Assembly: GCA_902789445.1 (NCBI GenBank)
Contig: CADAOB010000001.1
Span: 1 to 64,000 of the forward strand
Length of the DNA stretch: 64,000 nucleotides
Source of the DNA: an uncultured Bacteroidia bacterium
GTDB taxonomy: Bacteria; Bacteroidota; Bacteroidia; Bacteroidales; UBA932
Direction: 5' to 3'
In this document: piece by piece, positions 22,726 through 63,855 of the stretch
Position numbering within the stretch: the stretch's first letter is position 1
How the letters are laid out: each line of letters starts with the position of its first letter
Notes under the pieces: model-generated
What the model was told of the DNA's origin: nothing
The model's input: the letters and a program-made list of their open reading frames with translations, nothing else
The model's database searches: none
Made by a program: the position numbers and the translations under genes

Positions 22726-22772
22726 GCCCGCCAGCGCCGCTACCGCCGCCGGCCTTTACCGTCGCAAACCTT

Positions 22773-22930
22773 CGCAGACCGTCCTGACCGCTGTTGCCGC
22801 CGGTGTTGCCGCCGCTGTCGTTGCTACTGTCGCAGACAGTTCTGACCGCTGCTGCCGCCGGTGTTGCCGCCGCTGTCGCTGCTACCGTCGCAGACCTTCC
22901 TGGCCATTGCTGCCGCCGCTCATCGCCGGT
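22773..22930. repeat. 58-bp tandem repeat and GCC/GTTGCC low-complexity DNA
   Basis: Two nearly identical 58-bp units run at 22773-22830 and 22831-22888 (each starting CGCAGAC and containing GTTGCCGCCGGTGTTGCCGC), with a third partial unit after. Similar GCTGCCGTTGCT-rich DNA recurs at about 24858-24940 on the other side of the transposase gene, so low-complexity blocks bracket the locus. No gene is visible between 22726 and 23240. Confidence 0.75.
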
Positions 22931-23037: not shown

Positions 23038-23220
23038 GGGCGCAAAACCCCGCTGATTTGCTCCCCGCCCAGGATGATTTGGCAGTCGGGGCGCACATTC
23101 GGCTGTTTTTGCTCCCGGTCCAGTCGGGTTTAGGTGCCGGGGCGCACATTCGCCTGCTTTTGCTCCCCGACTGACCAAGTTTGACTGTCCGGGAGCAATT
23201 CTGCGTGTTTTTGCTCCCCG
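23038..23220 (+). repeat. Upstream 51-bp REP-like array of the first HUH transposase gene
   Basis: GCTCCC marks recur at 23060, 23111, 23162 and 23213, exactly 51 bp apart. Each unit holds a hairpin formed by GGGAGC or GGGCGC and GCTCCC separated by about 18 nt. A head module (GGGCGCAA at 23038, then CGCTGATTTGCTCCC) precedes the first mark by 22 nt. The identical spacing and head occur in the downstream array, in the same orientation. Confidence 0.9.
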
Positions 23221-23242
23221 CGGAATAGTTCTTCCGTTTTTT

Positions 23243-23306
23243 CTTGGATGTGCGCCCTTTTGATTGTATCTTGCGCTTGCATCCAGAGCCACGGTGGCGT
23301 TGGAGA
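23243..23306 (+). promoter_or_regulatory. Promoter and conserved leader of transposase gene 1
   Basis: CTTG (23243-23246) and TATCTTGC (23267-23274) are spaced by 20 bp. They are followed by a leader beginning ATCCA at 23281 and containing AGCCACGGTGGCGTTGGAGA (23287-23306). The same promoter spacing and the same 20-nt leader occur before the second transposase gene (60565-60626). GCCAC/GTGGC in the leader can form a small hairpin just upstream of the start codon. Confidence 0.65.
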
Positions 23307-23325
23307 AGAAAATGTGATGTTGGAT

Positions 23326-24309
23326 ATGGCTACGGATCTTTTCGTATACCCCTTTATCAATTTCCCGCCGGAAGGTCACTCTTTCCTTGGTAAGGAAAGC
23401 CGTTGCAAGACGCTTTTCGACCGCGCACTACACCATTTCGGCGTTTTTTATCACTTGCATACACCGGAAAAACATCCGGTCATTTTCCGAAATCCGCAGG
23501 ATTACCGGATGGCGATGACTATCATTGCCACATGCGCTTTTGATTGTCCAGGTATCCGCATCATCACCTTCGAACTGATGAGCAACCATGTCCATTTCGT
23601 GGTTTGCGGCAGTGAAGATGAAGTGATGGCTTTCTTCGAATTGTTCAAGAAACGCCTGAAGCGTTATTTCGGTAGTCTGCGAAAGGCTGTCGACTTGTCG
23701 GGATTCATTGGCAAAACGGTGGGAATCCCGACATTGGAAGCGTTGCGGAACCAAATCGGATATACCAACCGGAACAATTATGTAATCAACCCTGCCTATA
23801 CGCCGTTTTCTTATCCGTATGGGGCCGGTAATTGTTATTTCCCGGCGTATCAAATACGGCCGGATTATTATTATAAGGAGATGACCTTCCGTGAAAAACG
23901 AAAAATGCTGCATACACACAGACTCGATTATCCCGGAGAAATGGAAATCGTCAATCAGCACATATCACCCATATCTTTCTGCATGATTCACTTTGGGGAA
24001 TCTGTCTTTCGCGATGCCCGACACTACTTTTTCAAGATTTCCCGTGAAATAGAAAGCTATAAGGAGATAGCGGAAGCACTCTATGAATCGGTCTACTATA
24101 CGGATGATGAATTGAATGCCGTTATCTACAAAATCTGCAACGATCGGTTTGACGGGCAGCAGGCAACATTGCTGCCGCATTCCGACAAGATTATGCTCGC
24201 AAAAAAACTGCACTTTGAGTACAACGCCGACAATGGTAAGATCGCCAGATTGTTGAAACTGCAAATTGACTTCGTCGATTCCCTGTTCCCGCTGAAGAAA
24301 AAACAATGA
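23326..24309 (+). CDS. REP-associated Y1 (HUH) transposase-like protein 1
   Basis: A 327-residue protein with the IS200-like Y1 transposase core: the HUH motif NHVHFV (H88-V-H90), DCPGIRIITF just before it, and the helix with the likely nucleophile Tyr146 in LRNQIGYTNRNNYVINP. It is longer than typical RAYTs (150-230 aa). A C-terminal extension ends with LHFEYNADNGKIARLLKL, perhaps a DNA-binding helix-turn-helix. The ATG at 23326 matches the ATGGCT start of the paralogue at 60644; ATG 23317 is possible. GC is lower than neighbours. Both sides carry 51-bp palindromic repeats, the arrangement of a REPtron. Expected role: single-strand cleavage and spread of the repeats. Activity is unproven, but all catalytic motifs are intact. 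Confidence 0.85.
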   Translation: MATDLFVYPFINFPPEGHSFLGKESRCKTLFDRALHHFGVFYHLHTPEKHPVIFRNPQDYRMAMTIIATCAFDCPGIRIITFELMSNHVHFVVCGSEDEVMAFFELFKKRLKRYFGSLRKAVDLSGFIGKTVGIPTLEALRNQIGYTNRNNYVINPAYTPFSYPYGAGNCYFPAYQIRPDYYYKEMTFREKRKMLHTHRLDYPGEMEIVNQHISPISFCMIHFGESVFRDARHYFFKISREIESYKEIAEALYESVYYTDDELNAVIYKICNDRFDGQQATLLPHSDKIMLAKKLHFEYNADNGKIARLLKLQIDFVDSLFPLKKKQ

Positions 24310-24321
24310 GCTGTCTCCGCC

Positions 24322-24853
24322 GGGAGCAAGGCTCCGCTGATTTGCTCCCGGGTCGGACGGACTTGGTTGTCGGGGAGCGACTTTGGCTGTTTTTGCTCCC
24401 GGGCAGGACGGGTTTGGTTGTTGGGGAGCGACTTTGGCTGTTTTCGCTCCCGGGCAGGACGGGTTTGGTTGTCGGGGAGCGCTTTCGGCTGCTTTTGCTC
24501 CCGGACTGGCCGGGTTTGGTTGCCGGGGAGCGCCTTCGGCGGCTTTTGCTCCCGGACCAGGCTGGGTTTGTTTTCGGGGAGCGCCTTCGGCTGTCTTCGC
24601 TCCCGGGCAGGACGGGTTTGGTTTTCGGGGAGCGCTTTCGGCTGCTTTTGCTCCGGGGTCGGACGGGTTTGGTTGCTGGGGAGCGCCTTCGGCTGCTTTT
24701 GCTCCCGGGCAGGCCGGGTTTGGTTGTCGGGGAGCACCATCGGCTGTTTTTGCGCCCGGACTGGCTGGGTTTGGCCGTCGGGGAGAACGTTCGGCTGTTT
24801 TTGCTCCCGAACTGGGTGGGGAAGACGGGTTGGGAAGGGTCTTGCGGCGGGTC
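24322..24853 (+). repeat. Downstream 51-bp REP-like array, nine full units
   Basis: GCTCCC (or a one-base variant) recurs at 24344, 24395, 24446, 24497, 24548, 24599, 24650, 24701, 24752 and 24803: ten marks at exactly 51-bp period, so nine full units and a partial tenth. A typical unit reads GCTCCCGGGCAGGACGGGTT, then TGGTTGTCGGGGAGCGC, then TTTCGGCTGCTTTT. Each unit can fold via GGGGAGC/GCTCCC. The head module GGGAGCAA (24322) plus CGCTGATTTGCTCCC begins 13 nt after the transposase stop. Because 51 is a multiple of three, several reading frames stay open; none looks like a real protein. Confidence 0.93.
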
Positions 24854-33678: not shown

Positions 33679-33760
33679 CCGGGAGCAAAACCCTGGCGAA
33701 ACGCTCCCGGACGGAGCTGCCGAGTCGCCACGGGCGCAAAAGCCCGGGCTTTTGCGCCCG
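33679..33760. repeat. Isolated GGGAGC/GCTCCC hairpin and a perfect 30-bp palindrome
   Basis: CCGGGAGC (33679-33686) pairs with GCTCCCGG (33703-33710), the same core as the 51-bp repeats near 23-25 kb. Immediately after, 33731-33760 is a perfect palindrome of 30 bp (arms CGGGCGCAAAAGCCC). There is no T-run and no gene between 33622 and 33808. Confidence 0.8.
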
Positions 33761-59791: not shown

Positions 59792-59892
59792 CATCGTCCC
59801 TCGCCGGTCCTCATCGTCCCTCGCCGTCCTCGTCGTCCCTCGCTGGTCTTCATCGTCCCTCGCTGGTCTTCATCGTCCCTCGCCGGTCCTCA
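59792..59892. repeat. 20-bp tandem repeat after radA
   Basis: CATCGTCCCTCGCCGGTCCT-like units begin at 59792, 59812, 59831, 59851 and 59871: five copies, period 20 (one of 19). No gene. It lies between the radA stop and the first unit of the next repeat family. Confidence 0.8.
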
Positions 59893-59995
59893 TCCGCCTT
59901 GCCGAGCCCTTCGCCGCCATCCTCCTGACCGTCTGCCTCGCCAAACTCGCCTCTCGCCAGATTCCGACCTCCTCCGGCCTCCTCCAGCCTCTCCC

Positions 59996-60091
59996 GGCCA
60001 TAAAAATCGGCCTTCCTTATGGCCGACCCCCGGTGAAAACGCCCTTCGGCCATAAAACCGCTGGGATTTTATGGCCGGGGGGTCCAAGCTG
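59996..60091 (+). repeat. CCATAAAA repeat core, copy A
   Basis: Core with two hairpins: GGCCATAA/TTATGGCC in the first part and GGCCATAAAA (60048-60057)/TTTTATGGCC (60067-60076) in the second. It is followed by a GGGGGGTCCAAGCTG tail, as in copy C. Same orientation as the transposase gene downstream. Confidence 0.9.
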
Positions 60092-60160
60092 TCCGGTCAG
60101 GCCGGTCAGGCGGCACGCGATGGCCGACCCGCTGATGGTCGGAGCCGGGAGGGACGCAGA

Positions 60161-60259
60161 CGATGGCCTGTAACCGATGGGGTAAGATCGCAGTTGCGGG
60201 TGGTTTTTCGGGCCGGGAGCATTTTTCTGCGAGCGGAATGAAAAACCAGAGCAATGGAG
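60161..60259 (+). repeat. 99-bp module with GCAGTTGCGGGTGG, copy 1
   Basis: Same module as at 61996-62094 and (inverted) 58231-58330. The GGTTTTTC/GAAAAACC arms suggest a stem-loop. It lies between cores A and B and is missing between cores C and D. Confidence 0.88.
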
Positions 60260-60328
60260 TTCGGATGACAAACGAGATGTCCGGTCGGAGCCGGGTATGA
60301 CGCAGAAGATGGCTGACTGCCGATGGAA

Positions 60329-60447
60329 TCAGATGGCGTCGTTGAGGCCATAAAGCCCCGGCCATAAAAACCGGCCCTTCTTATGTCCGACCCCCGGTGA
60401 AAACGCCCTTCGGCCATAAAACCGCTGGGATTTTATGGCTGGGAAGT
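60329..60447 (+). repeat. Copied dipeptidase 3' end plus CCATAAAA core, copy B
   Basis: 60329-60346 is a near copy of the 3' end of the C69 dipeptidase gene at 62164 (TCAGATGGCGTCGTTGAGG against TCAGAGGACGTCGTTGAGG). It is joined directly to the repeat core (60346-60447, tail GGGAAGT as in copy D). The AT-richer spacer 60448-60564 has no gene. Confidence 0.85.
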
Positions 60448-60564
60448 TATTCCATGATTATAGCCAATGCCGCGATAGCGAAATATCCTCGACCAAAGCT
60501 GCCGGAGGTATTCATATTTCTGACGCCATCCTTCTCGGTAAATATGAAATCAATTCAAATTATG

Positions 60565-60626
60565 CTTGCAAATCGGGCGGTCGTGTATTAACTTTGTGCT
60601 ATCCATAGCCACGGTGGCGTTGGAGA
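60565..60626 (+). promoter_or_regulatory. Promoter and conserved leader of transposase gene 2
   Basis: CTTG (60565-60568) and a perfect TAACTTTG (60589-60596) are spaced by 20 bp. The leader begins ATCCA at 60601 and contains AGCCACGGTGGCGTTGGAGA (60607-60626), identical to that before transposase gene 1. The conserved block starts where transcription should start, so it is a conserved 5' UTR. Confidence 0.72.
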
Positions 60627-60643
60627 TTTATGTGAAAAAGATT

Positions 60644-61597
60644 ATGGCTAAGGAACATTCTTATTTCGAGAAGGAGGAGCGGTGCAGGCGGGTTTTCGAA
60701 TGGACGTTGAAAAAATATGGAGGCGTGTGGCATCTGTGTACGCCGGGCGAAAAGCAGCCCGTCATTTTCAATGACAGGAAAGACTTCGTCTATGCGATGA
60801 CGCTGGTGGCGATGTGTGCCAATGATTGCCCGGGTATCCGGATCATCACCTTTGTGTTGATGAACAATCACGTCCATTTTGTCATCTGTGGTACACGGGA
60901 ACAGGTGTTGGAATTCTTCGCATTGTTCAAAAAGCGGCTCTGCCGTTACCTTTCTTCCAACGGACTTGTCGTCAACCTGTCTGCGTTTGATTGTGGAGAA
61001 CCGATTCCCATCGATAATCTGGAGTCGTTGCGCAACCAGATTGCTTATACGAACCGCAACAATTTCGTAGTGGATCCGGATCAGACGCCGTTCAGTTATC
61101 CTTTCGGAGCGAACAGCTACTATTTCCTCCCGATTGCCAAAGAACGGCAACAAGGCAAGTTCGGCGACTTGAGCATCCTGAACAAGAGAAAGTTCGTTCA
61201 CTCGAAGCAAATCGACTACCCGGATACATTTACGATTGTTGACGGATTCTTTTCCCCGATGAACTATTGCCGGCTGGACATCGGTGAAGGCGTGTTCCGG
61301 GATGCCCGTCACTACTTTCACAAGCTTTCGAAGAATATCGAGGCCTACCGGGACATTGCGGCTATGCTGGGAGACAGGGTTTTCTATACCGATGATGAAC
61401 TGCTGGATATCATCAGGCAATTTTGCAAGGAAAACTACAACGTCCATAAGGTTCATCTGTTAGGCTGGAGCGAAAAGATGGAGTTGGCCCGCACACTCCA
61501 TTTCGAGTACAACGCCGACAACGCTAAAATTGCCCGGCTGTTGAAACTTCCTGTCGAAACGCTGGATGCGATGTTCCCGATGCGTAAGAAGCCATAA
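60644..61597 (+). CDS. REP-associated Y1 (HUH) transposase-like protein 2
   Basis: A 317-residue paralogue of the protein at 23326, similar over its whole length (about half the residues by eye). It has DCPGIRIITF, the HUH motif NHVHFV (H76-V-H78), FFALFKKRLCRY, the probable nucleophile Tyr135 in LRNQIAYTNRNN, SYPFGANSYYF, VFRDARHYF and the C-terminal LHFEYNADNAKIARLLKL. The ATG at 60644 is chosen by alignment with the paralogue; an in-frame GTG lies at 60632. The stop codon is the TAA inside CCATAAA of repeat copy C, so gene and repeat are fused. GC is lower than neighbours. Likely a single-strand transposase acting on the CCATAAAA repeats. Confidence 0.85.
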   Translation: MAKEHSYFEKEERCRRVFEWTLKKYGGVWHLCTPGEKQPVIFNDRKDFVYAMTLVAMCANDCPGIRIITFVLMNNHVHFVICGTREQVLEFFALFKKRLCRYLSSNGLVVNLSAFDCGEPIPIDNLESLRNQIAYTNRNNFVVDPDQTPFSYPFGANSYYFLPIAKERQQGKFGDLSILNKRKFVHSKQIDYPDTFTIVDGFFSPMNYCRLDIGEGVFRDARHYFHKLSKNIEAYRDIAAMLGDRVFYTDDELLDIIRQFCKENYNVHKVHLLGWSEKMELARTLHFEYNADNAKIARLLKLPVETLDAMFPMRKKP

Positions 61598-61699
61598 ATC
61601 CCCGGCCATAATAATCGGCCTTCCTTATGGCTGACCCCCGGTGAAAACGCCCTTCGGCCATAAAACCGCTGGGATTTTATGGCCGGGGGGTCCAAGCTG
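61591..61699 (+). repeat. CCATAAAA repeat core, copy C, overlapping the transposase stop
   Basis: It starts at GCCATAAATCCCC, which supplies the last codon and the stop of transposase gene 2. The two hairpins and the GGGGGGTCCAAGCTG tail match copy A. Confidence 0.9.
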
Positions 61700-61790
61700 C
61701 CCGGTCGGGCCGGTCAGGCGGCACGCGATGGCCGACACGCTGATGGTCGGAGCCGGGTATGACGCAGAAAATGGCTGACTGTCGATGGAA

Positions 61791-61925
61791 TCAGAGGCCG
61801 TCGTTGAGGCGGTTGAGGCCATAAAGCCCCAGCCATAAAAACCGGCCCTTTTTATGGCTGACCCCCGGTGAAAACGCCCTTCGGCCATAAAACCGCTGGG
61901 ATTTTATGGCCGGGAAGTCCAAGCT
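61791..61925 (+). repeat. Second copied dipeptidase 3' end plus CCATAAAA core, copy D
   Basis: 61791-61818 is almost identical to the first 28 bp of the C69 gene end at 62164-62191 (TCAGAGG.CGTCGTTGAGGC then GGTTGAGG). It is joined directly to GGCCATAAAGCCCC and the core, whose GGGAAGTCC tail matches copy B. Confidence 0.9.
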
Positions 61926-61995
61926 GCCCGGTCGGACCGGTCAGGCGGCACGCGATGGCCGACCCGCTGATGATCGGAGCCGGGCGGGATGCGGA

Positions 61996-62094
61996 CAATG
62001 GCCTGTAGCCGATGGTGTAAGAACGCAGTTGCGGGTGGTTTTTCGGGCTGCGAGCATTTTTCTGCGAGCGGAATGAAAAACCAGAGCAATGGAG
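61996..62094 (+). repeat. 99-bp module with GCAGTTGCGGGTGG, copy 2
   Basis: Nearly identical to 60161-60259. After it the sequence runs through ACAAACGAGATGTCCGGTCG into the native 3' end of the C69 gene, the same order as between cores A and B. Confidence 0.88.
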
Positions 62095-62163
62095 CCCGGA
62101 TGACAAACGAGATGTCCGGTCGGAGCCGGGTATGACGAAGGAGATGGCTGACTGTCGATGGAA

Positions 62164-63855
62164 TCAGAGGACGTCGTTGAGGCGGTTGAGGTCTTTGGCG
62201 TTGCCGGTTTTGGACTTGTAGCGCTCGCCGGTGTCACGGCCGATGGCCTCGTAGAACGAACGGTCGTAGCCGGGTTCCGTGTAGCGGCCGGGGATGACGC
62301 GGCCGTCTTTCGACGGTTTCATGATCTGGTCGTTGTGCTTGACGATCAGCAGGCGGGCCAGCACATCCCAGCGCTGCATCATCATTTCCGCGTAAGAAGC
62401 CGTCTTCTGCGTCAGGTAGGCCACCGTTTCGCGCGGCGTCAGCTTGGCGACCGCCGCCGCCACGGAATCCTGCTCAGACGCATAGAAATCCTCCAGCGAC
62501 TGCTGCGCTTCCCGCAGGTCGCCGATCATCGCACTGTAGCGGGGATAGACCATGTTGGCCACGAAATTGTTCATCCAGAAGGCGCTCTTCTCGCTGAACC
62601 TATTGCTGATGTTGTTTTCCGGACGGAAAGGCGCCGGAACGTCGTTGACGCAGCAATAGACCGGAACGTAGGCGACCATGCTGGCGTCGTCGCAGTTGAA
62701 ATACATCACCCCGCCCACGGCGTCGGGCAGCCAGCCGCGCAGGTGTGAAACCAGCGTGAAGCCGCTCTGCTGCGTACCGATGGCCCTTTCGCGGAAATAC
62801 TTCGTCCCGTCTTCGCTCTCCCAGCTCATCGGAAGCGGACGGTAGGGGGAACTCCAGGGACCGGCGCTGATGTCGGCGGTCATGTCGAGCGGCGTACCCT
62901 CGTAGTGGTCGCGCATGTCGTTCATGATGTCGCGGACCGATACCTTCCGGACCGGCTTGATCCAGAGCGGCAGATGGTCGCAGGTCGCGAAATCGCCGTT
63001 GATGTAGGGCAGATACTTGTCCATCTCGGCCGGATCGCTGTGGTGCCGGAAGAAACTCCATACGCGCGCGTCGGCATAGCGGACCTTCTCGAACGAGATC
63101 GGGCAATAGGCGTCGCGGAAACTGAAATCTTCGTCCCGGCCGGAGAAGTAACCCATTTCCCGGGCGAAGGAGATGGCGTCAGCCGCATACATCGACTGGC
63201 CTTCCACTTCGTAGAAGCCCAGCTTCTTGTCGATCTTGCGGGCCTGCGGGAACTGGCGGATGCGGCAGATGTTGGCGTGGGCGCTGATGCAGTCGTCCGG
63301 GATGCGGACGGCCACCCAGACGGCGCCCTTCCGGCCCGGTCCCTTTCCGATGAATTCGAAGATCCAGGCCTCGTTCTTGTCGCAGACCGAGAGACTCTCG
63401 CCCGTGGCATTGTAACCGTACTCGGCCAGCAGGCCGGCCATCACCCGGATGGCTTCCCGGGCGGAGGCCGAGCGCTCCAGGGCCAGATGGATCATCGAGT
63501 CGTAGTCCAGGATCCCTTCCGGGTTCTGCAGTTCTTCCCGGCCACCGAAGGTGGTCTCGACGATGCTGACCTGTTTCTCGTTGATGTAGCCGATAACATT
63601 ATAGGTATATTCAACCTGGTCCACATACCCGCGGACCGGACCCCGGCCCCAGCTGCGGATGGCGATTTTCTCGCCGGGCGCATGGCGGCCGGCCGGCGTG
63701 CTGCGCAGCGACCCGGCAAAGCCGAAGCCGTCGCAGTTGTAGGTGCAGATGACCGATCCGTCAACGGAGGCGTCTTTGCCGACGATCAGGTTGGTGCAGG
63801 CGAAGCCCGCCGTTGCGCAGAGCAACGGCAGCAACGTCAGAAGGATTCGTTTCAT
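62164..63855 (-). CDS. C69-family dipeptidase, exported
   Basis: A 563-residue protein from the ATG at 63855 (MKRILLTLLPLLCATAGFA). The Ntn-hydrolase nucleophile Cys directly follows the signal peptide (FACTNLIVGKDASVDGSVIC). Family features include YTYNVIGYINEKQVSIVETT, SLSVCDKNEAWIFEFIGKGP and SMYAADAISFAREMGYF. A peptidase U34/C69 dipeptidase acting in the periplasm. The last codons (DLNRLNDVL, stop at 62164) are the source of the partial copies in the neighbouring repeat units. Confidence 0.93.
   Translation of the reverse strand: MKRILLTLLPLLCATAGFACTNLIVGKDASVDGSVICTYNCDGFGFAGSLRSTPAGRHAPGEKIAIRSWGRGPVRGYVDQVEYTYNVIGYINEKQVSIVETTFGGREELQNPEGILDYDSMIHLALERSASAREAIRVMAGLLAEYGYNATGESLSVCDKNEAWIFEFIGKGPGRKGAVWVAVRIPDDCISAHANICRIRQFPQARKIDKKLGFYEVEGQSMYAADAISFAREMGYFSGRDEDFSFRDAYCPISFEKVRYADARVWSFFRHHSDPAEMDKYLPYINGDFATCDHLPLWIKPVRKVSVRDIMNDMRDHYEGTPLDMTADISAGPWSSPYRPLPMSWESEDGTKYFRERAIGTQQSGFTLVSHLRGWLPDAVGGVMYFNCDDASMVAYVPVYCCVNDVPAPFRPENNISNRFSEKSAFWMNNFVANMVYPRYSAMIGDLREAQQSLEDFYASEQDSVAAAVAKLTPRETVAYLTQKTASYAEMMMQRWDVLARLLIVKHNDQIMKPSKDGRVIPGRYTEPGYDRSFYEAIGRDTGERYKSKTGNAKDLNRLNDVL

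Follow-up and report, generated by a model that had tools for sequence, protein, structure and literature searches.

What ties a transposase-like gene to the strictly spaced hairpins that surround it is the question raised by a locus in the first 64,000 nucleotides (nt) of contig CADAOB010000001.1 of an uncultured Bacteroidia bacterium, a gut-type member of the Bacteroidales (GenBank assembly GCA_902789445.1, here G000), this whole stretch being referred to as the window. In this locus 14 hairpins of 28 nt lie around a gene for a 327-amino-acid (aa) protein of the HUH (histidine-hydrophobic-histidine), single-tyrosine (Y1) transposase type, four of them upstream and ten downstream, at a step of exactly 51 nt. 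From comparison of sequences, the system is probably a divergent Bacteroidales type of the repetitive extragenic palindrome (REP) and REP-associated tyrosine transposase (RAYT) systems, or "REPtrons", distinguished by a fixed 51-nt register. The features of the locus are as follows.

23038–23218, + strand: upstream array, 28-nt hairpins starting at 23038, 23089, 23140 and 23191
23267–23303, + strand: promoter-like TATCTTG followed by the leader ATCCAGAGCCACGGTGGCGTTGG (23281–23303), read by eye over 45 loci
23326–24309, + strand: focal gene, predicted HUH-Y1 RAYT-like protein of 327 aa, with HxH at residues 88/90, candidate catalytic Tyr146 and invariant Asn150 at Y+4
24322–24808, + strand: downstream array, ten 28-nt hairpins with starts from 24322 to 24781 at a step of 51 nt

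The open reading frame as listed spans 23248–24309 (353 aa), while homologues favour the start at 23326, and the first downstream hairpin begins 12 nt past the stop codon. The mark TTTGCTCCC, allowing at most one mismatch, was located upstream at 23057, 23108, 23159 and 23210 and downstream ten times from 24341 to 24800 at a step of 51 nt, with one mismatch in four of the ten. Tandem Repeats Finder (TRF) reported period 51 for both arrays, with 3.2 copies at 23057–23221 and 9.2 copies (score 600) at 24341–24809. A first-pass annotation, made from the letters of the window, had described just such regular marks, four upstream and ten downstream, and both the pattern matches and TRF bear this out. 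It had also called the repeat exact, which holds for the period and not for the letters: unit identity has a mean of 0.82 downstream (nine units), and is 0.61–0.76 upstream (three units) and 0.57–0.78 between the two arrays. The head module that it saw at the opening of both arrays is indeed similar in the two and corresponds to the left arm and loop of each array's first hairpin, but it is not identical (GGGCGCAAAACCCCGCTGA versus GGGAGCAAGGCTCCGCTGA). When the first downstream hairpin was folded as single-stranded DNA, 3 of 200 shuffles were equally good. An Rfam scan of the whole window gave no matches.

Both the motifs and the predicted fold of the focal protein point to a Y1 transposase. 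Residues M85, H88, H90, R141, Y146, N148, R149 and N150 are invariant among 68 aligned relatives, with H88, H90 and Y146 also invariant in an alignment of 30 members, so that the predicted protein carries the HUH motif and a single candidate catalytic tyrosine, as the first-pass annotation had proposed. The Asn at Y+4 (N150) of these 68 sequences is placed as in E. coli YIYIN. An AlphaFold2 model (mean predicted local distance difference test, pLDDT, 86) was matched best by Foldseek to 4er8, the E. coli RAYT with its REP hairpin (E 3.9e-3, template modelling score by target 0.62), followed by the ISDra2 and IS608 TnpA transposases; RAYTs and transposases of IS200/IS605 type made up the top 13 matches (E 3.9e-3 to 1.2e-2, probability 1.00), with a tRNA-His guanylyltransferase at rank 14, and the modelled fold is that of a Y1 transposase. 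In profile searches the focal protein fell under the Pfam Y1_Tnp cut-off (13.8 bits versus 23) and had no NCBIfam match. Among 30 members, 17 matched Y1_Tnp at E<=1 (best 0.0084), and among 68 members NF047646 (REP_Tyr_transpos) was matched by 17 at E<=0.1 (best 0.00065) and the IS200 model NF033573 by five (best 0.00026). PHROGs yielded only a weak DNA-primase match (E 0.18), which was not adopted. The ratio of nonsynonymous to synonymous substitution (dN/dS) was 0.06–0.22 in ten close pairs and could not be computed in an eleventh (L098/L099); these low values suggest selection on the protein, which we count in favour of the REP–RAYT reading.

Of 40 genomes in the genus, 31 have homologues, among them the own genome, which holds six, three of them close; the next best of these shares 50% identity with the focal protein. 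The census of relatives consists of the best 80 of 286 confirmed places in the contig search, and therefore covers near relatives. By their titles these are metagenome or uncultured assemblies of Bacteroidales, Bacteroidia, Bacteroidaceae, Rikenellaceae and four Candidatus species, many from rumen, omasum or horse faeces; several loci come from closely related species and the loci are not independent. An identical 7-nt hairpin stem was present on both sides of the gene in 38 of 83 loci, as against 0 of 56 distant control flanks, and a repeated stem without sharing between the two sides in another 24, with a repeated stem in 8 of the 56 controls. Many of the RAYT-like genes are flanked, then, by putative palindromes of their own. 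The letters of these stems follow the protein among close relatives: the fraction of pairs with stems agreeing in at least six of seven letters was 0.67 above 85% protein identity (3 pairs), 0.44 at 70–85% (25 pairs), 0.04–0.08 at 50–70% (152 pairs) and 0.00–0.03 below 50% (523 pairs). Stem and protein similarity were correlated over 38 loci (Mantel r 0.35, 0 of 2000 permutations), mainly above 70% identity.

The distance between the hairpins is shared far more widely than are their letters. Using a lag self-similarity test (45-nt window and 62% threshold, both chosen by us), lag 51 was detected in 58 of 163 near flanks versus 2 of 141 far control flanks of the 83 loci; other lags in the near flanks were 102 (in 35) and 52 (in 20), with the next ones in at most 5. 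TRF likewise gave period 51 in 34 of 164 flanks, then 102 in five and 52 in four, with a maximum of 16.7 copies. Same-strand stem spacings of up to 130 nt fell at 50, 51 or 52 nt in 228 of 275 cases and at 102 nt in 25 more, and at least one spacing of 50–52 nt occurred in 56 of the 62 loci with a repeated stem. The stems of these 56 loci form 26 groups at 6/7 letters; at 5/7 letters they chain into three components, one holding 54 of the 56, so the 6/7 grouping is reported. Counting by hairpin centres was dropped in favour of same-strand stem spacing, the centres being 25.5 nt apart because hairpins alternate with the reverse pairing between them. As a control for length drift, the distance from the stop codon to the first hairpin ranged from about 1 to 510 nt over the 38 loci whose two flanks share a stem. 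By lag class, 54 of 83 loci belong to the 51 class. Taken as sequence comparisons, these results suggest that the spacing matters more than the hairpin letters.

Lags were also scored in 51 flanks of distant paralogues, where the commonest were 51 (7 flanks), 72 (6), 52 (4), 84 (4) and 71 (3). Discrete lags other than 51 were observed at L011, L224, L226, L227 and L231 (71/72 nt) and at L233 and L234 (84 nt), L224 and L227 being one site in two close genomes; that 72 equals 51 plus 21, or two helical turns, is arithmetic only. The bacterial interspersed mosaic element (BIME) downstream of E. coli rayT, a single comparator, has a lag of 101 nt, and the upstream flank of that gene has none.

The predicted cognate palindromes are not confined to the genes. 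A BLAST search of the own genome had suggested that the focal unit occurs at one locus, which was ruled out by matches of the hairpin pattern GGGAGC-N14-TTGCTCCC (at most one mismatch) elsewhere. This pattern, which is partly palindromic, matched the own genome at 26 places, 17 on the forward and 9 on the reverse strand, versus 0 for a reversed control. Outside the locus there are six hairpins at five further sites (control 0), so the unit is not absent elsewhere. One of these sites lies in the window:

33681–33759, − strand: dispersed double hairpin of the focal family, hairpins at 33681 and 33732, 51 nt apart and reversed, the second identified by eye

The others are C7:73585/73636 (again 51 nt apart), C31:16702, C4:6713 and C22:24845. 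The hairpin of the close paralogue L007 at C1:192985, TCCTCA-N14-TGAGGA, is more numerous, with 55 matches in the own genome versus 1 in the control; the 50 matches listed occupy 28 sites, and neighbour spacings below 300 nt among them are exactly 51 nt in 22 of 22 cases. Six such hairpins form an array at L279, with a distant homologue on C54 about 5 kb away, and four form another at L280, which is away from any homologue found.

The TCCTCA doublets measure about 84 bp, many having an A- or T-run in the spacer, and resemble a REP/REPIN population; no published account of this population turned up in a search of titles and abstract openings of the RAYT/REPIN literature. Candidate empty sites for two doublets (L269, L270) were uninformative on insertion, as no relative had both flanks adjacent. 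A separate 110-nt dispersed repeat was seen at L270:767–876, with many matches in several relatives, mostly G010 and G018, and on both strands in places.

A leader is also shared by the close genes of the genome. In the focal locus it is preceded by TATCTTG, which we take to resemble the Bacteroidota −7 element. The leader ATCCANAGCCACGGTGGCGTTGG stands directly before the start codon and, with at most three mismatches, occurs at four places in the own genome (control 0), three of them in front of the close genes and the fourth behind an orphan array at C1:152469–152749. Its exact core CCACGGTGGC was found in 6 of 45 loci, and variants of the leader and of the promoter-like TATCTTTG were recognised by eye in many other loci. 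Locus L010, without a tblastn match, was left out of this 45-locus reading of leaders and flanks. In the orphan locus (L252, G000 C1:152469–152834), a 51-nt TCCTCA array with six pattern positions is followed by a RAYT-type promoter, leader and first codons, beyond which the reading frame is unrelated and, by eye, starts like a signal peptide; the locus is apparently a gene remnant or a promoter capture.

Comparison of the focal site between relatives shows that both gene and hairpins vary. A survey of the site by its DUF3109 neighbour covered 30 loci of 40 places, 29 besides our own. A RAYT gene adjoins DUF3109 in the focal genome and in three of the 29 relatives (G010, G018 and G033), whose proteins are 63–65% identical to the focal one; G010 has common ground with the focal site on the DUF3109 side only. 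Where the gene is missing, the usual upstream neighbour adjoins DUF3109 in 15 of the 29, and in 11 of the 29 that neighbour was not seen. The focal locus has 4+10 hairpins (upstream + downstream), G018 2+2, G033 4+2 and G010 2+2, with a spacing of 51 nt in the relatives too, so that loci with the gene hold four to six hairpins against the focal 14. Gene-less sites read by eye have a solo double hairpin (G022, G037), a partial one (G006), or a short spacer and no hairpin (G015, G017). The prospect raised in the first-pass annotation, that the unit might be constant in relatives without the gene, is thus not what is found, nor is copy number constant in relatives with it. L192 was rejected as an occupied site, since no RAYT-like frame was seen between its DUF2007 match and DUF3109, 1.4 kb apart.

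One precise presence/absence difference was identified. Both flanks are 99% identical between G010 and G037, G037 lacks the gene together with one of two 82-bp doublets, and the break falls exactly at the doublet. We consider loss in G037 likelier than gain, given that the DUF3109 side carries orthologues in three other species; the same picture would result if the doublets had recombined. One difference in array length was also clear: the upstream arrays of L139 and L155, whose flanks are 97% (upstream) and about 90% (downstream) identical, differ by 204–205 nt, or four 51-nt units. A downstream difference of about 150 nt between these two loci was not accepted as a 51-nt step, as it falls past the end of the hairpin array, within a non-hairpin short tandem repeat at L155:4360–4520 whose copy number is unlike that of L139. 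L224 versus L227 was dropped as copy-number evidence: the sequence of L224 contains a run of N there, and what repeats is a GC-rich minisatellite and not a hairpin array. The L068 site in G010 was set aside as a clean empty site since its flanks lie on one contig in opposite orientation, indicating a rearrangement (L068/L240; G037 C1, G010 C40), and a hairpin doublet is present at each break.

Given these observations, the REP–RAYT type with a fixed register that we favour most likely works as follows. The HUH-Y1 enzyme would bind its own hairpin extruded in single-stranded DNA and cut and rejoin there, as in REP–RAYT systems, thereby moving or copying the hairpins. The working DNA unit would be a doublet of two hairpins in a register of 51 nt (sometimes 52), and from the conservation of this register the productive complex may hold two hairpins at a fixed distance. 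Doublets would scatter singly, units would be added in 51-nt steps, presumably by the enzyme and not by slippage, to give arrays beside the gene or elsewhere, and the gene, seated between copies of the unit, could be lost precisely with one doublet left behind. The focal array is consistent with being a substrate or a product of its protein, as the first-pass annotation suggested. Tentatively, one may go further and regard the two-hairpin complex as a molecular ruler that itself fixes the 51 nt, so that the letters drift freely and the register does not, the arrays then recording how single-strand units of 51 nt were copied or inserted one by one. If so, the 71/72 and 84 nt of distant paralogues and the 101 nt of the E. 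coli BIME (one comparator) would represent one geometry that varies among RAYTs. Since the letters change while the 51-nt distance stays, and several paralogues in a genome have different hairpins, sequence recognition would be separated from geometry. These loci bear on how REP palindromes multiply and on what role a domesticated Y1 transposase has in its host: their substrates occur naturally in sizes from the doublet up to about 17 units by TRF, with a precise step size for asking whether the enzyme makes arrays.

In REPINs, a fixed doublet length would be expected by descent within one family, whereas here the same register occurs in many hairpin families. The resemblance is in palindrome doublets that spread as units (PMC3116915; this and the papers cited below are represented by excerpts). 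Closest are the REP–RAYT or TnpAREP systems, or "REPtrons" (E. coli rayT with BIME-2, structure 4er8; PMC2817692, PMC8266576), which have a HUH-Y1 protein likewise, the nearest fold, their own palindromes on both sides, a palindrome type tied to the protein, dispersed doublets and tandem clusters, and the periodic BIME noted above. The focal system differs from them in the length of its protein, with a long C-terminal part, in its tyrosine motif, in having no GT[AG]G guide, and in maintaining one 51-nt register over many different hairpins. In the excerpts, BIMEs have mostly 20–100 bp spacers and variable linkers (PMC2817692, PMC3733652, PMC8266576), and the dimer distance is variable, mostly 20–100 bp, with some spacers conserved within a family (PMC3733652). 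Xanthomonas campestris has clusters of regularly spaced REPs, and BIMEs lie beside one third of rayt genes (PMC2817692); regular arrays as such are therefore already known. A fixed 51-nt register for RAYT-type hairpins was not found in a literature search of titles and abstract openings, with preprints and most subscription journals outside its range. The first-pass annotation had set the locus apart from known REP–RAYT systems, with their dispersed REPs or short pairs. The strict array stands, but the focal hairpin is itself dispersed (at least two of its five other sites being exact 51-nt doublets), as is the paralogue's, and the E. coli BIME is also periodic.

Two other groups are relevant. 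TnpAREP subclass 2.6 of the Bacteroidetes, which includes RAYT group 5, has flanks with "atypical secondary structures" found also elsewhere in the genome (Quentin et al. 2018, PMC6006769), and thus agrees with our family in host and in structured flanks that recur. Its row in the table of that paper gives 179 (read as length in aa), NH[LIV]H, WQ and YIH[QN]NP, whereas WQ and YIH[QN]NP are not among the invariant or nearly invariant columns here and the focal protein has 327 aa. For the set in that paper, proteins had been selected by matches to Pfam Y1_Tnp at E<0.01; with a best value of 0.0084 among 30 members, most of the present family would therefore be missed by such a collection. The terminal inverted repeat-associated tyrosine transposases (TIRYTs) are also Y1 proteins; many of them are extended at the C-terminus, and their flanking repeats are not GTAG REPs (PMC3733652, PMC6006769). 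Those repeats are mostly terminal inverted repeats with GGGGWSAS in the excerpts, unlike the hairpin doublets here, whose orientation on the two sides of the gene is direct in 28 of 45 loci.

A number of results weigh against assigning the focal system to the REP–RAYT type with a fixed register. No repeated stem was found in 21 of 83 loci, the lag signal is absent in 23 of 83 and at other lags in 6 of 83, and the remaining close own-genome loci, L007 and L008, are both outside the 51 class. The focal stem is GGGAGC versus GGGCAC in orthologues at the same site, and stem and protein therefore do not track strictly. A GT[AG]G no more than 8 nt from the hairpin foot was present at 0 of 14 focal and 1 of 35 dispersed hairpins. 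An internal focal hairpin folded little better than shuffles (13 of 200 equally good, as single-stranded DNA). As regards the protein, Foldseek gave nothing below E 0.001 for the focal model, the PDB profile match to ISDra2 was weak (E 0.013), and hhalign against a single E. coli RAYT sequence gave a probability of 0.8% and no support. The tyrosine motif is YxNRN and not the YIxxNP of the PMC6006769 table excerpt, and the 68 sequences lack an invariant or nearly invariant Trp.

Of the other explanations, the one to be taken most seriously is that the arrays are ordinary minisatellites, which we consider possible without favouring it. Tandem direct repeats slip readily, and slippage with homologous recombination can account for both array growth and gene loss, in which case the protein would be irrelevant to array length and G037 would have lost the gene when 82-bp direct repeats recombined, giving just the boundaries seen between G010 and G037. 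The arrays of four (L280) and six (L279) hairpins away from close RAYT genes, and the non-hairpin minisatellite that varies beside such a gene in L155, fit this explanation as well. Slippage leaves unexplained, however, why isolated doublets of exactly 51 nt stand at many sites and why one period is combined with different hairpins across the family. Alternatively, the gene and its end hairpins might move as one element, a true insertion sequence of IS200/IS605 type. The Y1 fold, the presence of the gene in only 3 of the 29 relatives' DUF3109 loci and the focal-clade members L056 and L058 at other sites, without the focal neighbours, would agree with this, and both occupied and empty sites are seen, the sole precise presence/absence fitting recombination too. 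It is nonetheless unlikely, as the gene is at the DUF3109 site in G000, G018, G033 and G010 at a protein identity that suggests long residence, the own genome's next best homologue is only half identical to the focal protein, and the best-matching repeats of the two sides are direct in 28 of 45 loci, inverted in 8 and not found in 9.

It is also conceivable, though quite improbable, that the hairpins function in RNA, where they would terminate or stabilise the transposase mRNA, the 51-nt spacing then reflecting an RNA constraint. The hairpins do fold (computed as single-stranded DNA), and in 19 of 38 loci no more than about 15 nt separate the stop codon from the first downstream one, but doublets are dispersed over many gene-less sites, the upstream arrays precede the promoter-like element (by eye), and a terminator does not need an array of ten. 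An assembly artefact of short-read metagenome bins is very improbable. The nature of the relatives' assemblies and the run of N in the repeat beside a distant paralogue at L224 are what one could cite for it, whereas the focal units differ enough from each other to be assembled and the period recurs in many separately assembled genomes and in simple doublets.

A second RAYT-like locus in the window, that of paralogue L008, has a hairpin family of its own:

60049–60439, + strand: upstream hairpin copies of L008, at 60049 and 60413
60644–61597, + strand: paralogue L008, 49% identical to the focal protein, with its own different putative hairpin family GCCATAAAACC...GGATTTTATGGC
61657–61910, + strand: downstream hairpin copies of L008, at 61657 and 61884

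These four places, all in its own locus, are the only ones at which the L008 hairpin was found in the own genome. Its flanks (window 59990–62190) have repeats of about 300 nt containing GGTCGGAGCCGGG, a similar motif being present in the empty site of G015 (L176), and a 20-bp tandem repeat of 5.2 copies is located upstream of this paralogue at 59792–59894. At the focal locus, a 58-bp tandem repeat of 2.6 copies, distinct from the hairpin array, lies at 22768–22918 between the upstream neighbour gene and the array.

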